Source: Forficula auricularia (lineage: Eukaryota > Arthropoda > Insecta > Dermaptera > Forficulidae). From it: a stretch of DNA of 64,000 nt. The DNA is taken from the NCBI GenBank assembly GCA_024734495.1, contig JALMQS010000844.1, forward strand, positions 525,932 through 589,931. Direction: 5' to 3'. Below the pieces are notes generated by a model. The model saw only the letters and a list, made by a program, of their open reading frames with translations, was not told where the DNA came from and searched no databases. Below, in pieces: positions 2,633-61,447 of this stretch. The translations under genes were made by a program, and so were the position numbers. Every line of letters begins with the position of its first letter. Positions within the stretch are counted from its first letter, which is position 1.

Positions 2633-2913
2633 CATTATTTCAAGTTTAGAAATATATAAGTTCAAATATTATTTTCACTCAATATTTGACAAAATTCCCT
2701 ACATTTGATTCGCGATTGAATCAAATGTAGAAAACATTCGGTGCATTCGATTGCATTAAAACCCATCCTTCGCATTGGTCAAAGTAAAAATATATTATTA
2801 GTTGAATAAAAGATTTCACTGTCGATGGTAACAGAATTGTTTTTATTTTAGGTTAAAAATAAAATAAAATGAGAGAGTCTTCTGTTTTTAAATAAAATAA
2901 TTTTTAATTATTT

Positions 2914-2957
2914 CTAGAGACTATAGTTTCGAAGGCATTGCCTTCATCATCAGTCTA
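2914..2957 (-). ncRNA. Hammerhead ribozyme, left arm of HH-A copy 1
   Basis: Reading the minus strand: TAGA (stem I), CTGATGA (plus 2947-2953), stem II AAGGC/GCCTT, GAAAC, a TATA loop, then GTC and TCTA closing stem I. Stem III is two base pairs (AC/GT) capped by TATA. Every invariant core position is present. It is the mirror of the plus-strand copy at 3161-3204. Confidence 0.75.
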
Positions 2958-3160
2958 TCACAAATATTTCAGTATTTAGTTACAAATTAAGATTTATACA
3001 TAGAAAATTTTGAAAAATATATAATGTCTTTTTCTTCATGTTTCCTCTTGGGACATTAGAATATAACATCAGTTATAGAACATGAAGAAAAAGACATTAT
3101 ATATTTTTCAAAATTTTCTATGTATAAATCTTAATTTGTAACTAATTTGAAATATTTGTG

Positions 3161-3204
3161 ATAGACTGATGATGAAGGCAATGCCTTCGAAACTATAGTC
3201 TCTA
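3161..3204 (+). ncRNA. Hammerhead ribozyme, right arm of HH-A copy 1
   Basis: TAGA at 3162-3165, CTGATGA at 3166-3172, stem II AAGGC/GCCTT, GAAA at 3189-3192, two-pair stem III with TATA loop, and predicted cleavage after C3200, followed by TCTA pairing with TAGA. All conserved core residues are present. Cleavage would leave about 70 nt of 3' element sequence. Confidence 0.78.
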
Positions 3205-3274
3205 GAAATAATTAAAAATTATTTTATTTAAAAAACAGAAGACTCTCTCATTTTATTTTTGACCTAAAATAAAA

Positions 3275-3900
3275 ATATATTGTTGATCCAACAAAGGGAT
3301 GAAACCCCAATCTAATTCTGCCCTTGTTTCCTCCTCCAAAGCCCCCCCCCCTCCCATTTAGGCCTCTCATCTCGACCGACCACTTTTTCTCATTATTCAT
3401 ACCACACCACAGTCAAGACTCAAGAGTTGCCTCATAAATCACTTCAATATTTAACAGTCTACTCAAATGGAGGTTATTAATCAGGAATTACAAATTCTTT
3501 TCTCATAATGTTAATAAATGAGTTCAAGTGCCCTCCCTACCAATCAATTAACAAGCCTCGCTCGCTCGCATAGTTTCATTTTGATTTATACATGGCAATG
3601 AATTCTAGAAATATACTGTAGCGGCTCGCTGTTGCTTTGGCTACGAGCTTTTAGACACGGCCGCTAGATCGTTGCGACACTTTTGCATGACTGATAATAT
3701 TTCAGTCATATTATAAGTGAAGCAATTCGATCTCGACTGACGAATTGAAGGAGGGGCCATCCACCAACTAGTAGCCCCTCGCCCGCTAACTAAGCGCTTT
3801 TTATCAGGGACGAACATCCCCCTGCACAAATTATTGTTAGGACCCCACCAACTAGGTGGGGGCGCGGACACGCACCACAACGCACTCAACCGAGGCCCTA
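3275..3900. other. No gene seen; unique-looking G+C-richer stretch
   Basis: The interval holds a 10-nt C run near 3342 and a stretch of mixed composition (3600-3900) that does not match other repeats in the window. The 112-codon minus-strand open frame across 3641-3979 has no recognisable domain and runs into a Helitron-like end, so it is not called. Confidence 0.5.
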
Positions 3901-8619: not shown

Positions 8620-9330
8620 TTTTAATATAATAATAAAACTTGAGTAAGATACGAGGTAGGTTTCACAAAAAAAGAAATAAAACAAAATTGAGTTTTGAAT
8701 TCGATATATTTCGGGGGTTAGCCCATCATCAGGAGTCTAAGAAAACTGATTATATATTGGAAAAATAGTTTTACAAGTAACAATTTTTAAAAAATTTTTA
8801 ACTTTATGTGGTGAGGGGAAAGTAGGGGAAGAGGAGTTGTTCTAAGAATTAATATTTTCTATTGAGATTTGAACTGGCTGAAAGGAAGCTATACCTGCTA
8901 TTATAATAAAGAATGGACAAGTATCTGAGAAGGTACAACTTGAAAGGTACATGAGAGAGTACAATTACCCTAGTATATTCAATGTGCGAACAATGGAAGG
9001 AATGTTTAGTTAATTTATTATAACATATAATCAATAATTGTATTTTTATACACTTCCAATTGATTATTTAAAATATTTGAATTATTAGAGAGGGCTATTT
9101 TTATTTCGGTGGATTCTAAGAGATCCAATTTAAGGCCTTTTCTTTCGAAATGAAAGGGGATAGGGTTATTATTAGAGGTTGAATGGTTGAATTCATGTAA
9201 GTGAATTGCGAAGGCTGAGGTCGAATCTAAATTAATGTTATCGGATTTATTGAGATGATTAAGAGCTCTTACATGCTCGGAGTAACGTATTTTGAATGAG
9301 CGGCCTGTCTGCCCTATATATTTTGACTTC
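8620..9330 (-). pseudogene. Penelope-like element fragment, GIY-YIG end and 3' UTR
   Basis: The minus strand matches the plus-strand Penelope-like copy at 41738-42440 closely over its length: the codons around IGQTG near 9300-9330, the stretch encoding FERKGLKLDL near 9130-9160, the 3' UTR, and the terminal hammerhead at 8701-8745. It begins just inside the GIY-YIG domain, so it lacks the RT and most of the nuclease. Only the last part of the frame is recognisable and it is interrupted. It is a dead 5'-truncated copy. Confidence 0.8.
8701..8745 (-). ncRNA. Hammerhead-like core at the Penelope-like 3' end
   Basis: On the minus strand CTGATGA (plus 8726-8732), a 3-bp stem II (GGG/CCC), GAAA (plus 8709-8712), then ATATATC, giving a loopless three-pair stem III and C at the cleavage position. 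The same core is at 42353-42382. Stem I is poorly paired, so activity is doubtful. Confidence 0.5.
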
Positions 9331-9798: not shown

Positions 9799-9950
9799 AT
9801 TGTGATAATAAAGAAAGATTAATACCTAATGTTTTGTCTTATAGGAAAATTGTTTAAAGAAATTTTAGAAACTTTTTAAAATTTAAAATATAAAATACTA
9901 GGTAGGTTTCACAAAAATAAAAGATAAGATGCTGGTTTAGCACAGCTCTA

Positions 9951-11115
9951 TATACCGGGTGAGCTTTTTTTTATCTTGAGACAGTCTTATAACTCAAAAA
10001 CAATGCATTATATGGAAAAAAGTTTCAAATAAAAGTTTATTTATATTAGGGGGGAAACTAAACTGGGCTATTGTTTGTCGACCTAGAACAAGCTTTCAAG
10101 AGTATTTCAATGTCAAGTTCTGTTTTTTAAATGGAATCCTATATTTTTTGTTACATCTACTTAATCTACAAAAAAAACTGAACAACTTTCATTGGGAATA
10201 TTTTTTTATACGACATCAAATAAACAAAATATTAAATTAATTAGATCTCAAAAGAAAAATTCTTAATAATTATTTTTAACAATTATTCAACTTAATTATC
10301 AAATAATAATTATTAAATATTTAATTATTAAATAAATAATTATTAAATTGAAAAGACACAACAATGAAAATAAGGGTTTAAAATGATATTAAAACTTCAT
10401 TAAATACACAGATTTAAGACATTATTTTATACTTATTAAAAGAACTTAAAATTCCTGAGTTTAAAAAAGTTTATTTCTCGTGTCCATCCAGGAGATAGTT
10501 ATATTGTATTACTATAATAAACAGGGAGCATTTTTTTGTTGAAGACAGAATTAAAATGGTCTTAATTTATGCGGTGAATGTGGAAGAAGTGTTATGGGGC
10601 TGCCATTGAAATGGATGCCGAGCGTTTTCCTGAATACACCCTCACAAGAAACTGAAAAAGGCCATAATAAGGAAATTGGAACTGGAATTCATCCAGAAGA
10701 CTTGCACAATACACTCTGGAATGGCATAGAACAGTGTATAAAAATTATTTACTTAATAATTAAATATTTGATCATTATTATTTGATAATTAAGTTGATTA
10801 ATTGTTAAAAATAATTATTAAAAATTTTTTTGAGATCTAATCGATTCTTGTATTTTGTTTATTTGATGTCGTATAAAAAAATAGTTCTTATGAAAGTTGT
10901 TCAGTTTTTTTTTGTAGATTAAGTAGACGTATAGAAAAATATAGGATTCCATTTAAAAAACAGAACTTGACATTGAATTGTACTAGGTCGACAAACAATA
11001 GCTTAGTTTAGTTTCCCCCTCGATATAAATCAACTTTTATTTGAAACTTTTTTCGATATAATGCACTGTTTTGGAATTATTAGACTGTCTCAAAATAAAA
11101 AACTCTCCCGGTATA
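9951..11115. mobile_element. TA-flanked DNA transposon with long inverted arms (ACCGGGTG ends)
   Basis: Ends TATACCGGGTGAG and its complement near 11105-11115, with arms of about 370 bp each (9951-10330 and 10745-11115). A TA dinucleotide flanks both sides. The central part (10470-10740, plus strand) has an interrupted coding trace: a frame-shifted reading contains AERFPEYT, reminiscent of the N-terminal DUF4817-type helix-turn-helix of some arthropod transposases. A better-conserved copy is at 28956-29798. It interrupts a Penelope-like tail. Confidence 0.65.
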
Positions 11116-11145
11116 TTTCGGGGTATAAGCCCATCTTCAGGAGTT
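11112..11145 (-). ncRNA. Hammerhead-like core in a second Penelope-like tail
   Basis: Minus strand: CTGAAGA (plus 11134-11140), stem II GGG/CCC, GAAA, ATATA. It is a diverged relative of the core at 8701-8745, directly next to the end of the TA transposon. Confidence 0.42.
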
Positions 11146-11261
11146 CAGAGAGAAAACTAATAGTTATATTTAAAATTTTAAAAAGTTTCTAATTTTTTTT
11201 TTACTTTATTTAAAATGTTTCACCAAGAAATCACACCATTCTCCCTAAATTGTGATAATAG

Positions 11262-15714: not shown

Positions 15715-15729
15715 AATTTAATATGTATA

Positions 15730-16037
15730 GTTTATTGAAGGAGACAATAAAAGAGTGTGTCTTCTGCTGGAATTATAAATTTTATTTATTTATAACAAGA
15801 CTATAGTTTCGAGTGCTTTGCCCTCTTCATCAGTCTATTACAATGGATTCATAGGAATTAATTTATGAATTAAATCATTCATCAAATATTATCAAATGTA
15901 ATGACTGTGAAGAAGCAAAGCCTCGAAACTATAGTCTCGTTATAAATAAATAAAATTTATAATTCAGCAGAAGACACACTCTTTTATTGTCTCCTTCAAT
16001 ATATAAAAATTCTGCTACTCTCGGCAAAAAAACTTTC
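15730..16037. mobile_element. Hammerhead foldback of family HH-B, perfect 15-bp TSD
   Basis: A 308-bp element with inverted arms. The left arm runs from GAAGGAGACAATAAAAGAG; the right arm ends in the complement and then a one-sided tail (15997-16037) containing TTCTGCTACTCTCGGC. A perfect 15-bp duplication AATTTAATATGTATA flanks it at 15715-15729 and 16038-16052. Each arm had a hammerhead: the left (minus strand, 15789-15843) has an intact core; the right (15900-15945) has lost CTGATGA. Other copies: 9534-9798 and 28384-28745. The duplication length and one-sided tail point to a retroelement rather than a DNA transposon. Confidence 0.82.
15789..15843 (-). ncRNA. Hammerhead ribozyme, left arm of HH-B
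   Basis: Minus strand: CTGATGA (plus 15826-15832), stem II GAGgGC/GCaCTC with AAA loop and one mismatch, GAAAC, TATA, GTC. Stem I pairs TTGTAA with TTATAA across an internal loop, the position where natural hammerheads make loop-loop contacts. Confidence 0.68.
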
Positions 16038-21660: not shown

Positions 21661-21993
21661 TCTACCTGATATCTTCGCCAATTGTGAATCGATTTTGATG
21701 ATTTTTTTGCATTGGGTCCAGTCTAGTTTCCGATTGGTCTCGTTTTTTTTCATTGGAAATTGACCTTTTTTGCTATATTTGTTCATTCTACATATTTTAA
21801 GTCCGGGTTGATAGTGGTCCTATGATTATTACTATTTTTAATTGATTTTGATTTTCTTTCAACAAACTAAAATACTAATTATTTAGTTGAATAAAAGATT
21901 TCACTGTCGATGGTAACAGAATTGTTTTTATTTTAGGTTAAAAATAAAATGAGAGAGTCTTCTGTTTTTTAAATAAAATAATTTTTAATTATT

Positions 21994-22038
21994 TCTAGAG
22001 ACTATAGTTTCGAAGGCATTGCCTTCATCATCAGTCTA
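21994..22038 (-). ncRNA. Hammerhead ribozyme, left arm of HH-A copy 2
   Basis: Minus strand: TAGA, CTGATGA, AAGGC/GCCTT stem II, GAAAC-TATA-GTC, TCTA. Identical in core to the copy 1 motifs. Confidence 0.75.
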
Positions 22039-22158
22039 TCACAAATATTTCAAATTAGTTACAAATTAAGATTTATACATTGAAAATTTTTAACATTATA
22101 TATTTTCAAAATTTTCAATGTATAAATCTTAATTTGTAACTAATTTGAAATATTTGTG

Positions 22159-22203
22159 ATAGACTGATGATGAAGGCAATGCCTTCGAAACTATAGTCTC
22201 TAG
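22159..22203 (+). ncRNA. Hammerhead ribozyme, right arm of HH-A copy 2
   Basis: CTGATGA at 22164-22170, GAAA at 22187-22190, predicted cleavage after C22198. Stem I TAGA/TCTA. Same sequence as 3161-3204. Confidence 0.78.
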
Positions 22204-22639
22204 AAATAATTAAAAATTATTTTATTTAAAAACAGAAGACTCTCTCATTTTATTTTTAACCTAAAACTAATTATTTATTCTAAAACACCTGTTAACGATA
22301 AAAATTAATTCAAAATAACTAAAAAAAGAGAACTCAATACCATAAAGTGGTTTTAATAATGATTAATAGCGAATAAAATTTTTTTCGAAATTTTCAAAAA
22401 TCGAATAAAAATACTAATTATCTTAGGACTACTATCAACCAAGTCTTAAAATTTGTAGAATGAATAGAAGTTTAAAAGAAAAAAAAATCGAAAAGTAAGT
22501 ACATACATCAGTTTCAAAAACAAGATTAAAATTTTCAAACTCAAAAATCGCATATTAATACAGTTTAAATAATTTTTTGATATTTTTTTCTAAAAAGTAT
22601 GTAAAAAACAAAGATAAAAAAAAAAATTGAATTTGGACT

Positions 22640-36403: not shown

Positions 36404-36615
36404 TAGTAATAGGTATCGTGGATAAGACTTTTTAAATTAAACGCAGAGTTTGTTTTTTTAAATTAAATGTCAAACGTTTCGTCACTGATTTCTGACATCT
36501 TATGAAATGAGCCACTGAAGAAGTCAGAAATCAGTGACGAAACGTTTGGCACATTTAATTTAAAAAATAAACTCTGCGTTTAATTTAAAAGTCTTATCCA
36601 CGATACCTATTACAA
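36404..36615. mobile_element. Compact hammerhead foldback
   Basis: About 210 bp, nearly a perfect palindrome: AATAGGTATCGTGGATAAGA and its complement form the outer ends. The right arm carries a complete hammerhead; the left arm keeps the complement of stem II and GAAACGTT but lacks the CTGAAGA box. Confidence 0.75.
36505..36556 (+). ncRNA. Hammerhead ribozyme with strong stem I (HH-C type)
   Basis: Stem I AAATG-a-GCCA (36505-36514) pairs with TGGC-a-CATTT (36547-36556), nine pairs with a 1x1 mismatch. CTGAAGA at 36515-36521, stem II GTCA/TGAC with an 8-nt loop, GAAA 36539-36542, loopless ACGT, cleavage after T36546. Confidence 0.72.
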
Positions 36616-37952: not shown

Positions 37953-38307
37953 CGCCTCCGTGGTGTAATGGTCAGAGTAACTGACTGGCAACCCGGAGGT
38001 CTCGGGTTCGATTCCCGGCTATACCCAGACATTTTTTCTGTAAGTATAGGGTCTGGTAATAAAAATTAAGTGGGAGATAAATTTAACCGAATTTATCACG
38101 CGGAGAATTTACCACTGCTCGAAGCCCCTAAAACCTTAGTAAATTGGATATTGAATTGTATCTAAGTTTCTGAGATTGGCTCGTGATCCCGGCTTCTTTT
38201 CCTTCTACTCTGTTCTTTTCACGATGGAGGGGCCAGCCTATACAGGCCTTTAGGGGATCCACCTTCTGGTGCATCTCCTTCTCACATCAATATCATTAAA
38301 AAAAAAA
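37953..38307 (+). mobile_element. tRNA-derived SINE
   Basis: The head has pol III boxes: A box TGGTGTAATGG (37961-37971) and a consensus B box GGTTCGATTCC (38005-38015) with tRNA-like spacing. The T-arm CGGG-TTCGATT-CCCG is intact. A unique body of about 280 bp follows, then a CATCAATATCATTAAAAAAA tail. The 3' part recurs at 16860-17033. No open frame. Its tail abuts the foldback at 38309. Confidence 0.82.
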
Positions 38308-38351
38308 GGAATAGCAGAGAATGGACCAAAATTAAAAACAGAGTTTTTATT

Positions 38352-38403
38352 GAATGGGCCAGACGTTTCGTCGATTAATTTCTACTTCCTCAGTGGCTCA
38401 TTC
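38352..38403 (-). ncRNA. Hammerhead ribozyme, left arm of HH-C
   Basis: Minus strand: stem I GAATG-a-GCCA/TGGC-c-CATTC, CTGAGGA, stem II GTAGA/TCGAC with one mismatch, GAAA, ACGT, C. The invariant core is intact. Confidence 0.7.
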
Positions 38404-38761
38404 TATCACTCTTTGTCAAAAGACAATTCCACTACGCCACGAAACATCCTTTAATCTTTTTTATTATTTTAACTACAATAAATTGTTGGTTTAGGCCTCA
38501 ATTGCTCAACAATCTTGAACTTTTTACACTTGAACAATTAAAAAACTTTAAATCAAAATTCTCACATTTTTACAAGTAAAAACAACATATTTTTTTGTGA
38601 GAATTTTGATTTAAAGTTTTTAATTGTTCAAGTGTAAAAAAGTTCAAGATTGTTGAGCAATTGAGGCCTAAACCAACAATGTATTATAGTTAATATAATA
38701 AAAGGATTAAAGGATGTTTCGTCGCGTAGTGAGTGGAATTGTCTTTTGACAAAGAGTGATA

Positions 38762-38813
38762 GAATGAGCCACTGAGGAGGTCGAAATTAATCGACGAAAC
38801 GTCTGGCCCATTC
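38762..38813 (+). ncRNA. Hammerhead ribozyme, right arm of HH-C, best motif in the window
   Basis: Stem I GAATG-a-GCCA (38762-38771) pairs with TGGC-c-CATTC (38804-38813); CTGAGGA 38772-38778; perfect 5-bp stem II GTCGA/TCGAC with a 6-nt loop; GAAA 38796-38799; loopless ACGT; predicted cleavage after C38803. Loopless stem III is typical of Penelope-linked minimal hammerheads, which tend to act as dimers. Confidence 0.8.
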
Positions 38814-39059
38814 AATAAAAACTCTGTTTTTAATTTTTGTCCAATTCCCTGCTATTCCTGTTAATTAATGCTTATTATGGACACGAGTGATTTACCCTTA
38901 TTGAAAATGTTGGGCGAAAAAACCGGACACACTTAGGAAAATAGTATTACTTATATTTATACTACTACTTACTACTTACTACTTGTCGATTAGCAATAGT
39001 AGTAGTATTATATACAACAATACAAAACCAGAGTTTTTTGATTATATAGGTATCTTATA

Positions 39060-39420: not shown

Positions 39421-39618
39421 TTTTGGATTTTCCTTATTTGTCCTTATTATATTTTTAATTAACAACTTTTAGATTTCATATAGGTACCTAAACTCTTACA
39501 ACTATAGTTCTGAAATAATTTCAAAAAATCTATGATATTAACAAATTAAATAAGTGACATATTATTATTAGTACCTAATTAGTAGAGATTGTGGTGTTGG
39601 TGCAAGGTGAAACATCTT

Positions 39619-39786
39619 TAATAAAGATAAGAGTAAATAAATATTTTATTTAATATGGATTTAATATGAGTTGAGGATTCTTGGATTCTTGGTCACTTTT
39701 AATGTGAAACAAGTGACCAAGAATCCTTAACTCATAGTAAATCAATATTAAATATAATATTTATTTACTCTTATCTTTATTATTAG
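39619..39786. repeat. Small foldback ending at a Helitron-like end
   Basis: Arms 39619-39695 and 39710-39786: TAATAAAGATAAGAGTAAAT and complement, TTCTTGGTCACTT in the loop region. It immediately precedes the HEL element and follows GGTGAAACATC, a phrase shared with the foldback ends at 52010. Confidence 0.7.
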
Positions 39787-40893: not shown

Positions 40894-41514
40894 GATAACT
40901 AATAATATGGAGGTACACTTTTCTTACAGGAGTTGTATGCATGCATGCATGAATAGCTCACCTTTTTTCCCCGAGCGCGCCTGCAAGTTAGACAGCCATT
41001 TGGACAGCCCTGTTCACCCAATGCCTATCCTACAGGCGTCCCCGTCGTCCAGCATTACATAAAAATAATTCAATTTCTTCTACAATACTACTCGTTAACC
41101 AATCTCTCCATCAATAAATGGCAAGGTGTTGTTTCCTTTATTTCACTTTCTTATTCAGATCCTTATTTCTTCATTTTTAAATTTCTCTAATTCTTGGAGA
41201 GAAATGAGTTCATTTCTGCTCACACATACCTTTGGTTAAACCAACGACGGCTGACTCATATGGGCATATTCTAAGAAACCTAATAATCATCATTCTCCAA
41301 TGATTAATCCTGGAATCTTTTGCATTTCACATGACCAACCCTTTTTATATATTAGCACCTGGAGGACCTCGGTAATTTTTTTGTTTGTTATTTAATCAAC
41401 CACTTGTTTTATTTTGATTCAACCATCTGTTAATTTAGTAAGGGTTTAAATAAGGGACGTGCAGCTTTAATTTATTTCTTTTTATTTATAAACTCGAACA
41501 AGGCCGATTTAATA

Positions 41515-42045
41515 TTGTTATCATTAGAATCTGGAACCGAAAAAATATATAGAAGAATACCCTTCATTTCTAATCATCTGACATCTCCATTAGCTTATAC
41601 CCTTAGATCATATGGAATCACTCCTGCTTTATACAACAACAACAATTTAGGCTCTCAATTAATTAACAATAAAATAGACAAAATAGATAAATTAGACAAA
41701 TCAGGAGTGTATAAATTAACTTGTCAAGATTGCGACGCTTTTTATATTGGGCAGACAGGTCGCGCTTTCAAAATACGTTACTCCGAGCATGTAAGAGCCC
41801 TTAACCACCTCAACAAATCCGATAACATTAATTTAGATTCGACCTCAGCCTTCGCAATTCACTTACATGAATCTAACCATTCACCCTCTAATAATAACCC
41901 TATCCCCATTCATTTCGAAAGAAAAGGCCTTAAATTGGACCTCCTGGAATCCACCGAGATAAAAATAGCCCTCTCTAATAATTCAAATATTTTAAATAAT
42001 CAATTGGAAGTGTATAAAAATACAATTATTGATTATATGTTATAA
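41515..42045 (+). CDS. Penelope-like element GIY-YIG endonuclease, C-terminal fragment
   Basis: A 176-residue frame. GVY (64-66) and YIG (77-79) form the GIY-YIG pair. A CQDC pair (C70, C73) and HLHESNH supply the Cys/His residues typical of Penelope nucleases. Downstream are R83, the YSEHVRALNH helix (89-98) with H92, an LLESTEI segment with the probable catalytic Glu (about 145-148), and the NNQLE end motif. In this family the nuclease nicks the target for priming. The RT that should precede it is absent; the first ATG lies within about 80 bp of the left terminal repeat. A diverged minus-strand copy is at 8620-9330. Confidence 0.88.
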   Translation: MLSLESGTEKIYRRIPFISNHLTSPLAYTLRSYGITPALYNNNNLGSQLINNKIDKIDKLDKSGVYKLTCQDCDAFYIGQTGRAFKIRYSEHVRALNHLNKSDNINLDSTSAFAIHLHESNHSPSNNNPIPIHFERKGLKLDLLESTEIKIALSNNSNILNNQLEVYKNTIIDYML

Positions 42046-42345: not shown

Positions 42346-42395
42346 TAGACTCCTGATGATGGGCTAACCCCCGAAATATATCGAACTCAAAACTC
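42346..42395 (+). ncRNA. Hammerhead-like core, Penelope-like 3' UTR
   Basis: CTGATGA 42353-42359, stem II GGG/CCC, GAAA 42373-42376, ATATAT and C42382. Same as 8701-8745. Stem I is weak. Confidence 0.52.
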
Positions 42396-50649: not shown

Positions 50650-52000
50650 TGAAACATATTAATCTACTTATACTTGCGGTTAATTATTTAACCATTTATA
50701 AAAATAATTAACCAATTTTTTGAGAGGGTCATTGTTAATAAAAAGAAGTCTTCATGGGTCTGTAGAGAAATGTCAAAAATTGGGATTTATACGGAATAAG
50801 ACAACCCCCTTTTTTTCCAAATAGTGATATCTTAATAATTAAGATATTAAAAAAAAACATTGTTTACATTATTAATTGTTTTTTTTTGTTTTTTTATTAA
50901 AACCCACTATAAGATTATAAGAAATTAAAATATATATTAAAATTAGATTACCTTGTACCTTAAATCAAATATAATAATTAATTCAAATTTTTATCTAATT
51001 AATTTAATCAAATGATTAATTAAAATAAATATTTATATAATTATAAATTCTACATTAAATGAATATACTCATCTTCTAGTCAGAAATACAATTTCTTGTC
51101 GTAATTACCTATTATTCCATTTAAATACCCAACTATTAAATTTACCTATTCCACTATTTTACTCAAATAACAATATTTTAATAATTTACTTATTGGTGCT
51201 TGGTTCAAATAGAGGCATCTTAACTATTAATATATCTAGAGTTTTTCCGAAAATATGAGAATACTTAAAATACGTATATCATTTATTCATATTGAACAGA
51301 GATCAATTCCGGCATAATTAACTTCAGCATCTATCCATATCAAATATAATTTCTTAACTATAAATATATCGTTTTTTCATTGTAGTAGCGTTAAAAAATG
51401 AACTACTCAGGAGGCAGATCTTGAAAGATACTTGCGGTGAATCATTTAACCTTTTATAAAAATAATTAAAATTCCTTAAAAACATTTCCAAGAATGTTAA
51501 TAATGTTAAAGTAGGTACATAGAGAGAAATTATGAGGCATTGATTTTACTTTAATTAAATCACACACATGGCATATAATATAATATCAAGCCATGAAGAA
51601 AGTGAATGTTAAATGTATACGTAGTATAAAGGCCACGGGTATAGAACTGGAAAGGTGGGATGGTGACCATTATTCTATTCTCTTCTGATCCCAAGGACTA
51701 TTACTGACTTTTAAAACCTACGCCTTTATTGATTTAATAGATACCATCGGGGGGGGGGGGGGCTTTTTGTTCTCCATAATCCTTATCTTTCACAGATAAG
51801 ATTGCTTTGTTCTAGACAGAAAACTTTACTGTTGAACGGAAAGTACTAATTAGTGTGTTTCTAAAAATTTACAACTAGATATTAAAACTTTCATAGGCTG
51901 CTAATATTTTTATGGTAAAAGCTAAAGCTTATAGTTTATTAGTTTAGTCATTTTATAGATTTTTTAATGTTTTAAAGAAATAAATGATTTTACTTATGGA
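50650..52000. other. No gene seen; short repeats
   Basis: A partial second copy of 50350-50430 lies at 50720-50810 (GAGAGGGTCATTGTTAATAA). A 12-nt G run sits at 51750. The rest is A+T-rich without open frames. Confidence 0.45.
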
Positions 52001-52097
52001 AAGTGGTGTAGGTTTTAGGTGAAACATGATGTTAGTTAATAGAGTAAAGGGTGTGTAGTTTCACAGTGAATGAAATAAAACTCAAAGAGGTTTATAC

Positions 52098-52140
52098 AAA
52101 CTCAATATATTTCGGATTATTGGTCCATCATCAGGAGTTT
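52098..52140 (-). ncRNA. Hammerhead ribozyme, left end of HH-D
   Basis: Minus strand: stem I AAACTC/GAGTTT (6 bp), CTGATGA (plus 52128-52134), stem II GGA/TCC with 7-nt loop, GAAA, loopless three-pair ATATAT stem III, T at the cleavage position. Confidence 0.68.
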
Positions 52141-52543
52141 ACAGGTTAAAAACTAATAATAATTGAACGAGTGGTCGCCATTCTTGACATTCAAATCATG
52201 GTTACCAATATAACAAAATATAACATTCAAATCTTACACAAGAAAAACACCAATGAAAATTTGAAATTTAAAAAATTTAAAAAATTGTTTTACAAAGATT
52301 TTTCTTTTTTAATTATAAAATATATAAATGTAAATATAAGAAATCTAAGTAAATATGAATATTAATATAAACAAAAATTACAAGTATAAATATAAAGTCT
52401 TTTTAGAATTGAATTAGAAAGTAGAATTACAAATTTAAGTCATAGACACAAAATTAATTATAAATGTCAGTTTACAAATAAGCCTAAATAACATATAATA
52501 TAAATAATAATATAACGGAATAACTAATAGAATACTGATCAAC

Positions 52544-53988
52544 ATGAAAGATTATATTAAGATCCCGATAGTGCATATTTTTAATCTGAGTTTTCTTCAT
52601 GGTAAATACCCTTCAGGATTCAAAAGTGCAATTGTTCTACCACTTTTTAAAAGTGGAGACAAAAAGTCCTTAGGAAACTATAGACCTATTTCTCTTACAC
52701 TATCTCTGTCAAAAATACTGGAAAAATGTATCAAGGTCCGATTGATGTCCTTTATACATAAACATGCTATAATATCCAAAAGACAATATGGGTTCCAGCC
52801 TGATATATCTACATCTCATGCTCTTTTTGATGTTTCAAAACACATCTGTCAAAGTCTTGATAGGGGGATTATGTCTTTGGTTTGTTTTTGGATATAGAAA
52901 AAGCATTTGACTCCATTAGTCATAAATTATTAATAAAAAAGATTGAAAATTATGGTATTCGTGGAATCGCTCTTGATTTGATAAAGTCTTACATCAGTAA
53001 TAGAACCCAAATTGTGAAGATTGATGAAATCAAGAGTAACCTAACAACTGTGAACTCTGGTATTCCTCAGGGAACTGTATTAGGCCCTTTGCTATTCATT
53101 TTATATATAAATAATATTTTTTCTATTAAGACTAATGGATTACCCTTTTGTTTTGCAGATGACACTGCCTTTATCTTTTCGGGCGACTGTTTTAATAACT
53201 TGACAAAAACTGTTTCTGATGATTTTAGATTGGTTAAGAAATATCTTAATACCAATTTTCTTTCTATAAACATTCAAAAAACTTCATTGGTTTCCTTCTC
53301 GAATGGTGAGAGAAAGTGCTCCTCCAAGAGCACACCTCACATCACTCTCCACTCTATCAATTGTACTGTCTCTCAGGAATGTTCATGTCAAGTCTTGAAG
53401 TTTGTAAATGAATGTAAATATCTGGGAATTATTTTCGATTCCAAAATGAGCTTCAAGACACATATTTTGAAATTGACTAGCAGTATCAGAAAACTCTTTT
53501 ATAAATTTAAGATTCTGAGAGGCATTCTTAGTTATGAAGTTCTAAGAATGGTCTACTTCTCCTTGTGTCAGTCTTTGCTGTTGTATGGGATTTTGGTCTG
53601 GGGGAATACAAGTGAATTCATTTTAAGGGGTCTTTCTGTTGCTCAGAATATTGTTATTAAGATTATACTAAAAAAGCATCCAAGATTTGCCACGCTGGCG
53701 TTATATGATGAGTTTAGGGTACTGAATTTAAAACAATTATTCCTATTGAATGCTTGTATTCATTTATATAGAATAAATTGTACAAATTACAATTTGCATT
53801 ATTACCCCACACGTATATCTAGCAGAACAAATATAATTTTGCCCAGGATTAAAACTGAATTATACTCGAGACATGCTCAAATTGTTGGCCTGAGAATGGC
53901 AATAAAGTATAGATATAATTATGATCAATTTAGAAATGTTAGACATATAAAGAGTTTTTTAATTAATTCTGGCTTTCTAAGAATGTGA
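52544..53988 (+). pseudogene. LINE reverse transcriptase, one frameshift from intact
   Basis: Two overlapping frames (52544-52897 and 52882-53988) form one RT when a single missing T in the run near 52885 is allowed for. Motifs in order: LFKSGDK and NYRPISL (first frame); LDIEKAFDS with catalytic Asp 4 of the second frame; GIPQGTVLGPLLF (60-72); FADDTAF with the Asp pair at 93-94; a KYLGI segment of the thumb region; and a C-terminal tail ending SGFLRM. The domain matches non-LTR RTs of the CR1/L2/Jockey group. The endonuclease and ORF1 are missing by 5' truncation. It could be the same family as 4808-6732, which lacks exactly this part, but there is no overlap to test it. Confidence 0.88.
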
Positions 53989-54224
53989 ATTTGTATGACG
54001 ATTTTATTTTATTTTGATTTACTTTACTTTATGTTGTTTTACTTTTTATTTTGTACTTTTTATTTTGTCTTTGTTCTTTTATATCTTTAATTTAAAGTAA
54101 TTTATTAAATTTATGTTTTTGAATTTCTCTGTTAATTTATCTTAAAATTTAACCCTCGACTCAAGATTAATCTTACAGAGGGTTAAATTTTATTATATAT
54201 GTAAACTGTGCATGTAAACTGAAC

Positions 54225-54254
54225 CAAATAAATAAATAAATAAATAAATAAATA
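54225..54254. repeat. (AAAT)n LINE tail
   Basis: About seven AAAT units ending the LINE at the foldback junction. Confidence 0.9.
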
Positions 54255-55004
54255 TAGAGATGAAGAATTAAGATAAAATATAATAGGGATAAATTAGATG
54301 AGATAAATTACAATATACAACAATTTTTGTGGTTATCTCATATATCAAAATGTCATTTATTTCAAAGACTGAAGGCGCGTGATTTGAATTTAATTTTGAT
54401 TGTAATTTGGGAAATAGTATATATTTGAGAGAGACTGAGGTTAAGTTTTTTAATTTTTGTTAATTAGTAGATCTATTATTGTGGAATTTCTAATGTCCTG
54501 CTGGTTATTGAGAATTTTATCTTCAAATCACGCGCCTTCAGTCTTTGAAATAAATGACATTTTGATATATGAGATAACCACAAAAATTGTTGTATATTGT
54601 AATTTATCTCATCTAATTTATCCCTATTATATTTTATCTTAATTCTTCATCTCTATATGTTATTTAGGCTTATTTGTAAACTGATATTTATAATTAATTT
54701 TGTGTCTATGACTTGAATTTGTAATTTTGCTTTCTAATTTAATTCTAAAAAGACTTTATATTTATACTTGTAATTTTTGTTTATATTAATATTCATATTT
54801 ACTTGGATTTCTTATATTTACATTTATATATTTTATAATTAAAAAAGAAAAATCTTTGTAAAACAATTTTTTAAATTTTTTAAATTTTAAATTTTCATTG
54901 GTGTTTTTCTTGTGTAAGATTTGAATGTTATATTTTGTTATATTGGTAACCATGATTTGAATGTCAAGAATGGCGACCACTCGTTCAATTATTATTAGTT
55001 TTTA

Positions 55005-55056
55005 ACCTGTAAACTCCTGATGATGGACCAATAATCCGAAATATATTGAGTTTGTA
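55005..55056 (+). ncRNA. Hammerhead ribozyme, right end of HH-D
   Basis: AAACTC 55011-55016, CTGATGA 55017-55023, stem II GGA/TCC, GAAA 55038-55041, ATATAT, T55047, GAGTTT 55048-55053 closing a 6-bp stem I. The core is intact. Confidence 0.7.
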
Positions 55057-55199
55057 TAAACCTCTTTGAGTTTTATTTCATTCACTGTGAAACTACACAC
55101 CCTTTACTCTATTAACCAAATAAATGATTGAGAGAGAAGAAGAAAGAAAATCAACTGGTGTGTGCACACCACACGACTTTCACATTAGTTTCTCCTTTT

Positions 55200-59405: not shown

Positions 59406-60472
59406 CTTATATGGATTCTTGGTTCAACCTTTTTAAGGAAGGCTAGTTTTTCCCAAAACATTTCCTCAACATTTAACACTGTATTAATAATAATAATTAG
59501 GTACTCACTATTCGTAGTAATAGTATATGCTCACTTTCTGTGATTGACCTTTTGGTTCCTAGCTAGCTAGCCAGCCAACATGAAGACACACTTGATTGTG
59601 TATTCTCATCTTAATCATTTCGAAAAATCCTTCCTGTCCATTGATCTTTTAACAATTTCATCATATATTACGGCTTTATCTTTAGACAATAATAATTGTC
59701 TTTATTTGCAAAAAGTTTCTTTCAAATATTTATTATGGAAGATATATGAAAAATTTTAAGATAGAGTGAATTTCCTTTCTTTCGTCATCATATAGGTACA
59801 TATACGTATACTTTTTCTTCTTTTATCAAACAATACATTATTTACTGATCGTTTTTCTACTAATATATGCTCAACAATGGAAATGTTTCGGGCTCAAAAA
59901 TAGCCACCTGCTGAATTCAAAAATTACCGATTAGCTCTTGTTTTGGAGATATTATCGATCAAAACGTCGAAAAAGGCCATTTTGACCGTATTTTCGAGTC
60001 TCATTACATATTAAACATCAATATTTGAAATCAAAATATTTTGTTGACGTAATAGAAGACAGCTTCCTCTTTGATTTTCAGTTCACTGCTTGTTTTTAGC
60101 ACAATTAGAACTCACTTTATAACTAAAAAACTAGAACTACGTGATTATAAATGATAATAAACAAAAAATAAATAAAATCTAATGAATTAATTGTTTAATC
60201 ATTAATTTGTTTTGTTTACAATATTTTATTGATTATTTATTTGTATTGTTGAAAAAGTAAATAAAACTAAAATCTACACTTTTTATTTAGCGCTCTTTTT
60301 ATTTTACTCTATTATAGCAAAATTGGCATTGAAAAATTATTGGAAATATCATATATACCAAGAGAAATTGAATTACTTTTATGGTCTTAGTTTTTTAGTT
60401 ATAACACGAGTTTTAATTGAGCTAAAAACAAGTGGTAATTTGAAAATCAAAGAGGAAGCTGTTCTCTATTAT

Positions 60473-60785
60473 TAATTTTACTTATGGAAAGTGGTGTAGG
60501 TTTTAGGTGAAACATTGATGTTAATTAATAGAGTAAAGGGTGTGTAGTTTCACAGTGAATGAAATAAAACTCAAAGAGGTTTATACAAACTCAATATATT
60601 TCGGATTATTAGTATTAACTTGTAAACCCCTGATGATGGACTAATAATCCGAAATATATTGAGTTTGTATAAACCTCTTTGAGTTTTATTTCATTCACTG
60701 TGAAACTACACACCCTTTACTCTATTAATTAACATCATGTTTCACCTAAAACCTACACCACTTTCCATAAGTAAAATTAATAATA
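60473..60785. mobile_element. Short HH-D foldback
   Basis: Arms 60473-60608 and 60650-60785 run from TTACTTATGGAAAGTGGTGT through TAAAGGGTGTGTAGTTTCAC to TCAATATATTTCGG. These are the same ends as 52010-55118 without its interior, so it is an internally deleted derivative. One full hammerhead is in the right half. Confidence 0.78.
60624..60666 (+). ncRNA. Hammerhead ribozyme in the short HH-D foldback
   Basis: CTGATGA 60630-60636, stem II GGA/TCC, GAAA 60651-60654, ATATAT, then GAGTTT. Stem I AAACCC/GAGTTT has one mismatch compared with 55011-55053. Confidence 0.62.
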
Positions 60786-61447
60786 GAGAACAGCTTCCTC
60801 TTTGATTTTCAAATTACCACTTGTTTTTAGCTCAATTAAAACTCGTGTTATAACTAAAAAACTAAGACCATAAAAGTAATTCAATTTCTCTTGGTATATA
60901 CTATATAGATATTTCCAATAATTTTCAATGTCAATTTTGCTATAATAGAGTAAAATAAAAAAGAGCGCTAAATAAAAAGTGTAGATTTTGGTTTTATTTA
61001 CTTTTTCAACAATACAAATAAATAATCAATAAAATATTGTTATCTATTATTACGTGAATAAAATATTTTGATTTCAAATATTGCTGTTTAATATCTAATG
61101 GGACTCGAAAATAAGGTCAAAATGGTATTTTTCGTCGTTTTGACTGATAATATCTCAAAACTCTGACCTGTTGTAAAAAATCGGGAAATTGCATGAGAAT
61201 CAGCGTATAAAACTACTGGAATTCATTGTTACGTTTACGGGGTATAATTTTTTTCAATTTCATCGAAAACGTTTTTTCTTTCTAATTTACATTGACCTTA
61301 AAATATTACAAATATTTATTAGTATAGGTACTATTTTTAGCTGAATGTAATTTAGGATGTTCTTTATTTGAAATACCAGTGAATTATATAAATACCTAAA
61401 TATTTTCCTCTCTCAAGCGAATCAGCTATACTATAATATGAAGAGAG

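Follow-up and report, generated by a model that had tools for sequence, protein, structure and literature searches.

The palindromic element at 2797-3269 of the window (the whole 64,000-nt stretch of Forficula auricularia DNA that was analysed) is probably a non-autonomous, ORF-less Penelope-like insertion, composed of two head-to-head pseudo-LTR (pLTR) cDNAs with one tail and made by an enzyme acting in trans. This element is copy A of a family, F1, of which a second copy, copy B, lies elsewhere in the window. The anatomy of F1 suggests how Penelope elements insert. The parts of the two copies are as follows.

2785-2796: left target-site duplication of copy A, a perfect 12-mer, TAAAAATATATT
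2797-3269: whole element, copy A of family F1, with its ends as given in the first-pass annotation
2798-2843, sense on the minus strand: one-sided tail of 46 nt, outside the arms
2844-3043 (inner end approximate), minus strand: left arm, one pseudo-LTR cDNA, sense outward to the left, from the inverted repeat and the arm alignment
2915-2957, minus strand: left-arm hammerhead-like motif, with a putative cleavage site following 2919
3044-3082: centre where the arms meet, approximate, the arms being unequal in copy A
3083-3269 (inner end approximate), plus strand: right arm, second pseudo-LTR cDNA, tail-less, sense outward to the right
3162-3204, plus strand: right-arm hammerhead-like motif, with a putative cleavage site following C3200
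3270-3281: right target-site duplication of copy A, a perfect 12-mer, TAAAAATATATT
21874-21885 and 22266-22277: duplication of copy B, perfect 12-mers, ACTAATTATTTA
21886-22265: copy B of F1, same plan as copy A, centre deleted

Copy A is self-complementary over 2840-3275 (91% over 447 aligned columns) and copy B over 21931-22266 (98% over 338 columns). Self-alignment and the identical 43-letter motifs confirm the palindrome with a core in each arm, in opposite orientation, that the first-pass annotation had described at 2797-3269. The perfect 12-bp duplications that it reported around both copies hold letter for letter, and the putative cleavage position at C3200 and its minus-strand mirror at 2919 lie where it had placed them. 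It did not include the tail at 2798-2843, outside the arms. In F1 this tail is TTAGTTGAATAAAAGATTTCACTGTCGATGGTAACAGAATTGTTTT, 46 nt long, and flanks one arm only, and the duplication is outermost, beyond tail and arm alike. By analogy with characterized Penelope-like elements (PLEs), we interpret the tail of copy A as the stretch between two reverse-transcription start sites. The window frame list contains no ORF of at least 120 aa that overlaps an F1 element.

A search of the genome (1.06 Gb) with the F1 element returned 1268 first-look candidates, of which 40 were scored; these 40 places gave 80 matches, one per orientation, with 90-100% identity in the better orientation. Together with copy B they make up a set of 41 copies. 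A fuzzy search of both strands (up to 400 bp from the middle, with at most 6 errors) found exactly one tail in 41/41, a set in which 40 copies had come from a tail-containing query. An arm-only, and so tail-blind, query gave 5 candidates, and the copies beyond the window's own (L042-L045) also have one tail in 4/4 cases, scoring 70-92 of 92 on one strand and 17-20 on the other. One of them, L045 at ~1386-1570, is an F1 insertion with one tail, ~65-bp arms without a hammerhead, and ATATAAAAATAAT on both sides.

One copy (L023, a segmental duplicate of L014) was left out of the F1 flank, arm, inner-end, core and marker analyses, leaving 40 copies. The best flank match averages 11.1 nt over these 40, against 5.2 nt for mismatched flanks, and reaches at least 11 nt in 27/40 copies compared with 7/1560 mismatched pairs; in the remaining 13 it is 3 to 9 nt long. 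The earlier proposal of a mobile element, most likely a retroelement, with a hammerhead-type motif in each arm and duplications of ~12 bp is supported. The duplication tends to have TA at either end (at the start T in 30/40 and A in 29/40 copies, at the end T in 31/40 and A in 34/40), as if one enzyme preference acted on both strands, with microhomology to the element ends another possible source of the TA at both ends. Structurally, F1 has the marks of a non-autonomous PLE: head-to-head inverted pLTR arms, a tail in the 30-46-bp range on one arm, and duplications of ~8-15 bp at AT-rich sites, with a flank match below 10 in 13/40 F1 copies and in 3/30 copies of the F2 family described below.

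Five foldbacks in the window (2840-3275, 15733-16001, 21931-22266, 39619-39782 and 52032-55119) are tailed on one side only, over 36-46 bp, and have flanks that match over 11-15 nt. Those outside F1 are listed here together with one coding frame.

15730-16037: F2 foldback, arms 15733-16001, tail on the right at ~16002-16037, hammerhead-like core at 15833 on the minus strand, 15-nt flank match AATTTAATATGTATA at 15715 and 16038
39577-39777: foldback (39619-39782), flanked by the 14-nt match TATTATTAGTACCT at 39563 and 39778; its one tail reads, in sense, MFHLAPTPQSLL
41434-42045, plus strand: GIY-YIG-like endonuclease frame, followed by hammerhead-like motifs at 42353 and 42483
51990-55117: foldback with arms 52032-52515 and 54634-55119, both of which contain a hammerhead-like motif; one tail, which reads MFHLKPTPLS; flanks matching over 12 nt (AAATAAATGATT, at 51978 and 55118)

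No hammerhead-like motif was found within the arms of the foldback at 39577-39777. For F2 a genome search gave 2635 first-look candidates, of which 40 were scored, with 80 matches, one per orientation, and 30 were fetched; the duplicates L052/L053 and L077/L078 were kept, so that these 30 represent 28 distinct insertions. One tail is present in 30/30, and the flank match averages 12.3 compared with 5.3 for mismatched flanks.

We surveyed foldbacks in 226 kb from 48 sources, comprising the window, the F1 loci plus flanking DNA, and 40 kb taken from arbitrary places (L001, L041 and L046, which are repeat reads of the window or of L045, were omitted, and L014 and L023 were both kept). The survey yielded 176 foldbacks, some of them nested, of which 47 carry the F1 tail and 129 do not. 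One-tail foldbacks have a stretch of ~34-53 bp outside one arm only. A flank match of at least 10 nt occurs in 35/47 of the F1-tail foldbacks (33 one-tail, 0 no-tail, 0 two-tail and 2 of other geometry) and in 16/129 of the others (12 one-tail, one of which, L050:1665, has only a 10-nt AT-rich match, 0 no-tail, 1 two-tail and 3 of other geometry). The mismatched-flank control gave 60 one-tail, 18 no-tail and 91 two-tail cases per 6000, placing the non-F1 one-tail geometry at ~9 times chance and the lone two-tail case within chance. Were start sites picked independently at the two ends, no more than half of all insertions should carry a single tail, and a count of 12/13 would then have a probability of 0.0017.

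The tails of four families read in sense as MFH[LY]-x-PTP-x-S (window 52032, window 39619, L049:3240 and L050:7996), and, to judge by sequence, they resemble the beginning of a Penelope-like ORF. Similar ORF-like starts are found at window positions 8620 (minus strand) and 11215 (plus strand) and in the flank of L042. The F1 and F2 tails have no MFH-type ORF start and by eye are alike, sharing AATTCTGYTAC...TCGRCA. The frame at 41434-42045 probably belongs to a Penelope-like ORF, judging by its GIY-YIG domain and the hammerhead-like motifs behind it; its own Pfam match falls below the curated cut-off (E 0.0036), and its homologue P0023 scores above it. F1 does not contain the ORF of an autonomous PLE, with telomerase-like RT and GIY-YIG, and the GIY-YIG-like frame lies separately. 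Among the sequences examined, none proved to be an autonomous element bearing the F1 tail, so the enzyme that serves F1 is one that we infer.

We propose that the unit of F1 would be one sense RNA consisting of a 5' end at AGTTATATTC, the hammerhead-bearing pseudo-LTR, a first reverse-transcription start site that ends CCTAAAA, the 46-nt tail, and a second start site that ends TTCAACTAA. Supplied in trans, a Penelope RT/GIY-YIG enzyme would cut both target strands ~12 bp apart at an AT-rich, TA-symmetric site, and each cut strand would prime one cDNA, one from the first and one from the second start site. Synthesis of either cDNA would continue as far as the RNA 5' end or terminate before it, and the two cDNA ends would be joined in the middle. 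Such a reaction should yield a palindrome of two head-to-head arms, a single tail and a 12-bp duplication, with the hammerhead on each strand as a by-product. The strand symmetry of the element would then follow from the head-to-head insertion of pseudo-LTRs, each arm being one outward-reading sense copy (PMC3846280).

Several of these steps have counterparts in PLE biochemistry. In vitro, the Poseidon PAc element of Anolis has both strands of an AT-rich target cut and extended, and the PLE tail is the stretch between two RT start sites just inside the ORF (PMC11167929). In vitro the two strands did not differ in the start site used by the Anolis enzyme (PMC11167929), a behaviour that does not by itself predict one of each and so counts against our model; here nearly every insertion examined has one of each. 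The same work describes the later insertion steps of PLEs as yet to be validated (PMC11167929). A stricter form of the model, which we think unlikely, makes two RNAs and two start sites obligatory for Penelope-type insertion: a dimeric enzyme would hold two sense RNAs, prime one on either cut strand of the target and, owing to some property of the complex, always use the inner site on one strand and the outer site on the other. Helix III (ACUAUAGU in F1 and F2) would mainly pair the two RNAs, and cleavage would be secondary. If this were true, a short foldback carrying hammerheads on both strands would be what the reaction normally yields and no accident.

Comparison of arms indicates how copies arise. 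Between F1 copies, mean arm distances are 0.0364 for left-left, 0.0526 for right-right and 0.0445 for left-right pairs; the last equals the mean of the first two, which implies that left and right arms form one pool. The left-right distance within copies is 0.0359, below all 2000 permutations. In F2 the between-copy left-right distance slightly exceeds the mean of left-left and right-right (0.108 vs 0.103), and the within-copy distance is 0.094, below all 1000 permutations. The two arms of an F1 copy agree at a 5-bp indel in 37/40 cases, at an A/T marker in 34/38 and at a C/T marker in 17/18, against permutation maxima of 33, 30 and 17, and the observed values were reached in 0, 0 and 8 of 10000 permutations (a fourth marker, GAG/GAC, gave no usable calls). 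Private variants in the 40 copies are found in one arm in 191 cases and in both in 11, counts that include alignment noise near the centre. From these sequence comparisons, every F1 insertion probably makes its palindrome anew, in most cases from a single source locus, and does not inherit it as a unit.

Arms disagree at two markers each in L033 and L039 and at one marker each in L001, L026, L032 and L037, an indication of two templates or of later change or exchange. It is above all L033 and L039 that suggest the use of two RNA molecules, which, like the order of events and the start sites, we infer. The inner end lies at most 2 nt from AGTTATATTC in 22/40 tail arms and in 22/40 other arms; counted per copy, both arms end there in 13, one arm only in 18 and neither in 9. 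We take AGTTATATTC to be a putative RNA 5' end that is common to the arms and to which each extended on its own, with later trimming as the other possibility. If one strand were always copied first, tail and tail-less arms should differ in completeness; the equal counts show no such difference. A T5/T6 run is shorter in the tail arm in 14 and in the other arm in 3 of the 40 F1 copies, an unexplained directional difference that a single arm pool does not predict and that stands against it.

The same observations bear on self-priming, which has been proposed for Penelope palindromes (PMC3846280). Here a single cDNA would fold back at its 3' end and copy itself, and the resulting perfect palindrome would then be integrated. 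Agreement of the arms at subfamily markers, near-perfect palindromic centres in several copies and the 11 private variants common to both arms are all to be expected of such a snap-back, and those variants also fit hairpin self-priming or gene conversion. It does not account for the discordant arms, however, and it predicts a tail at both ends or at neither, so that one tail requires an extra step. The apparent independence of the inner ends, of which in 18/40 copies only one comes to within 2 nt of the common end and its partner falls short, also argues against it, although later deletion within a palindrome could mimic this. We consider self-primed snap-back rather unlikely.

The plus-strand core at 3162-3204 reads TAGA-CTGATGA-T-GAAGGC/AAT/GCCTTC-GAAA-CTATAGTC-TCTA, and the identical 43 letters occur on the minus strand at 2957-2915. 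The regular expression CTGAWGA...CGAAA matches the window 16 times, compared with a mean of 0.18 (maximum 2) in 50 Markov-1 controls. Across 186 kb of window and loci (L001, L041 and L046 omitted, L014 and L023 both kept) there are 100 core-like motifs, 69 of them in the F1 cluster. The covariation set took one row each from 17/24 motif clusters; the seven left out by eye as likely variants resembled F1 (five), F4 (one) and the L007:2334 family (one). In these 17 families stem I averages 2.65 bp compared with 1.40 bp when 3' partners are shuffled, and stem II 4.41 bp compared with 2.07 bp, values that 0/5000 shuffles reach in either case; stem I has 0 bp in 3/17 families and only 2 bp in several others. 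The motif also has the type I core, CUGANGA ... GAAA ... NUH, with stems I and II. Stem covariation and the core across 17 families together make the motif a hammerhead by descent and topology. Judged on sequence, it is the minimal type I hammerhead known from PLEs, with putative self-cleavage.

The first-pass annotation had called these hammerheads complete. A core is indeed present in each arm, but an extra nucleotide follows A9, helix III has only 2 bp in the copy A motif, and a covariance search with the Rfam hammerhead models, which that annotation had proposed as a check, found no match at the gathering score in the window and none at E<=10 on 2700-3400. Genome-wide, RF00008 had 0 matches at E<=0.001, likewise 0 in control genomes. 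Matches below the gathering score to Rfam microRNA, snoRNA and other models were taken as chance on an AT-rich hairpin. The extra nucleotide, between A9 and stem II, is present in 17/17 family rows and may set them apart from the published PLE and axolotl motifs. A viroid hammerhead with an extra core nucleotide was reportedly described by De la Pena and Flores in 2001.

The helix III strand ACUAUAGU is self-complementary in F1 and F2 and is AUAUAU in others, which by analogy would fit a ribozyme that acts as a dimer. Minimal type I hammerheads of PLEs and Terminons have a very short or absent helix III (PMC7761336), and those of axolotl retrozymes have a palindromic loop and may act as dimers (PMC7229834); the motifs described here share the very short helix III and the self-complementary loop (PMC7761336, PMC7229834). 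In energy calculations without tertiary contacts, the ribozyme fold of the monomer has -5.7 kcal/mol against a minimum of -13.9 kcal/mol. The paired ribozyme dimer has -24.4 kcal/mol against -27.8 kcal/mol for two monomers and a dimer minimum of -36.8 kcal/mol, again without tertiary contacts. Dimer folding narrows the gap, and the ribozyme fold is still not the minimum.

The hammerhead of the Anolis PLE, near the pLTR/ORF junction, cut only with protein and was dispensable for insertion in vitro (PMC11167929). It overlaps the ORF start, unlike that of the ORF-less F1 (PMC11167929), and a review calls the role of PLE hammerheads a mystery (PMC7761336). A hammerhead in the cDNA is dispensable here as well, because L045 and the foldback at 39577-39777 have none, yet each has one tail and a duplication.

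These results bear on the view of the first-pass annotation that what replicates is the strand-symmetric palindrome as such, with transcripts of both strands cleaving themselves in their 3' halves. Both arms have an intact core in 28 of the 40 F1 copies (one arm in 11, neither in 1), as this view would have it. In a read-through RNA of either strand, however, the ribozyme lies next to its own complement, and the + strand read-through RNA is predicted to fold at ~-282 kcal/mol with the ribozyme buried, the probability of stem I falling from 6e-4 in single-arm RNA to ~3e-46. By mean distance the F1 arms form one pool, insertions without a hammerhead exist, and the core is no better conserved than the rest of the arm (0.018 non-consensus per site at 13 core sites vs 0.015 at 57 others, P = 0.77). 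The claim of a functional palindromic unit therefore fares poorly, and we regard it as very unlikely.

A metazoan non-LTR retrozyme inserted as an inverted dimer would match F1 in size, low GC, type I core and duplications of more than 4 bp, as described for such elements (PMC7229834). In the accounts drawn on here, however, retrozymes are direct tandem repeats with canonical hammerheads, whereas the F1 and F2 copies examined are inverted pairs, and the F1 arms extend beyond the cleavage site to fixed ends instead of running from cleavage site to cleavage site; a retrozyme origin is highly improbable. Least credible of all is a foldback or MITE-type DNA transposon mobilized by a transposase acting on terminal inverted repeats, which would suit the inverted arms, near-constant duplications of ~12 bp and non-coding sequence, because the inverted repeats are not terminal (~34-53 bp lie outside one arm only), in 0/176 foldbacks do matching flanks of 10 or more directly abut both arms, and tails in four families resemble PLE ORF starts.

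The two-cDNA Penelope-type insertion that we favour has close published relatives. Pen2a and related elements of Adineta vaga have ~200-bp head-to-head arms and a 31-bp tail on one inverted pLTR, together with palindromic junctions, duplications of 8-10 bp and unrelated DNA captured between pLTRs (PMC3846280). F1 shares with Pen2a the inverted pLTR arms of ~200 bp, the one-sided tail, the palindromic junctions and the duplications (PMC3846280). The Pen2a cases, as described, include an ORF and their tail is called optional, whereas in F1 and F2 the whole element is a pLTR pair with one tail. Short, nonautonomous, ORF-less Penelope copies have recently become prominent in Heliconius (PMC6685494); F1 is similarly short and ORF-less, and structure, tails and hammerheads do not feature in the account of the Heliconius copies drawn on here (PMC6685494).

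The first-pass annotation had suggested that a foldback of this kind is undescribed. Since hammerheads and inverted pLTRs in PLEs are published, this holds at most for the short ORF-less family. Neither a short ORF-less family with a tailed pLTR pair as the whole element nor a near-strict rule of one tail per insertion was found in the open-licence literature, and these two features appear to be what is new relative to the inverted pLTRs, tails and hammerheads already known. F1-type copies come close to a frozen record of the reaction, each copy allowing one to read off which start sites and strands were used, how many templates took part and where the RNA 5' end lay. The near-strict one-tail rule is a quantitative constraint on models of PLE insertion that biochemists can test directly.

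The window holds further repeats. Between the arms of the foldback at 51990-55117 lies a LINE-type RVT_1 frame (E 3.7e-20), which resembles host DNA captured between Penelope pLTRs. The sole foldback with apparent tails at both ends (46 + 46) is at 9856-11201, where the 13-nt flank match AATTGTGATAATA is within the chance rate. A 208-bp foldback at 36406-36613 surrounds a different hammerhead-like motif, CTGAAGAAGTCAGAAATCAGTGACGAAACG, with a best flank match of 8 nt. Further long foldbacks, 89-95% self-complementary, are at 1710-2092, 2158-2630, 38304-38862 and 60218-61040, the last with a hammerhead-like motif at 60630. A tandem array of a 31-bp repeat occupies 152-722, and some windows within it are 97-100% identical.
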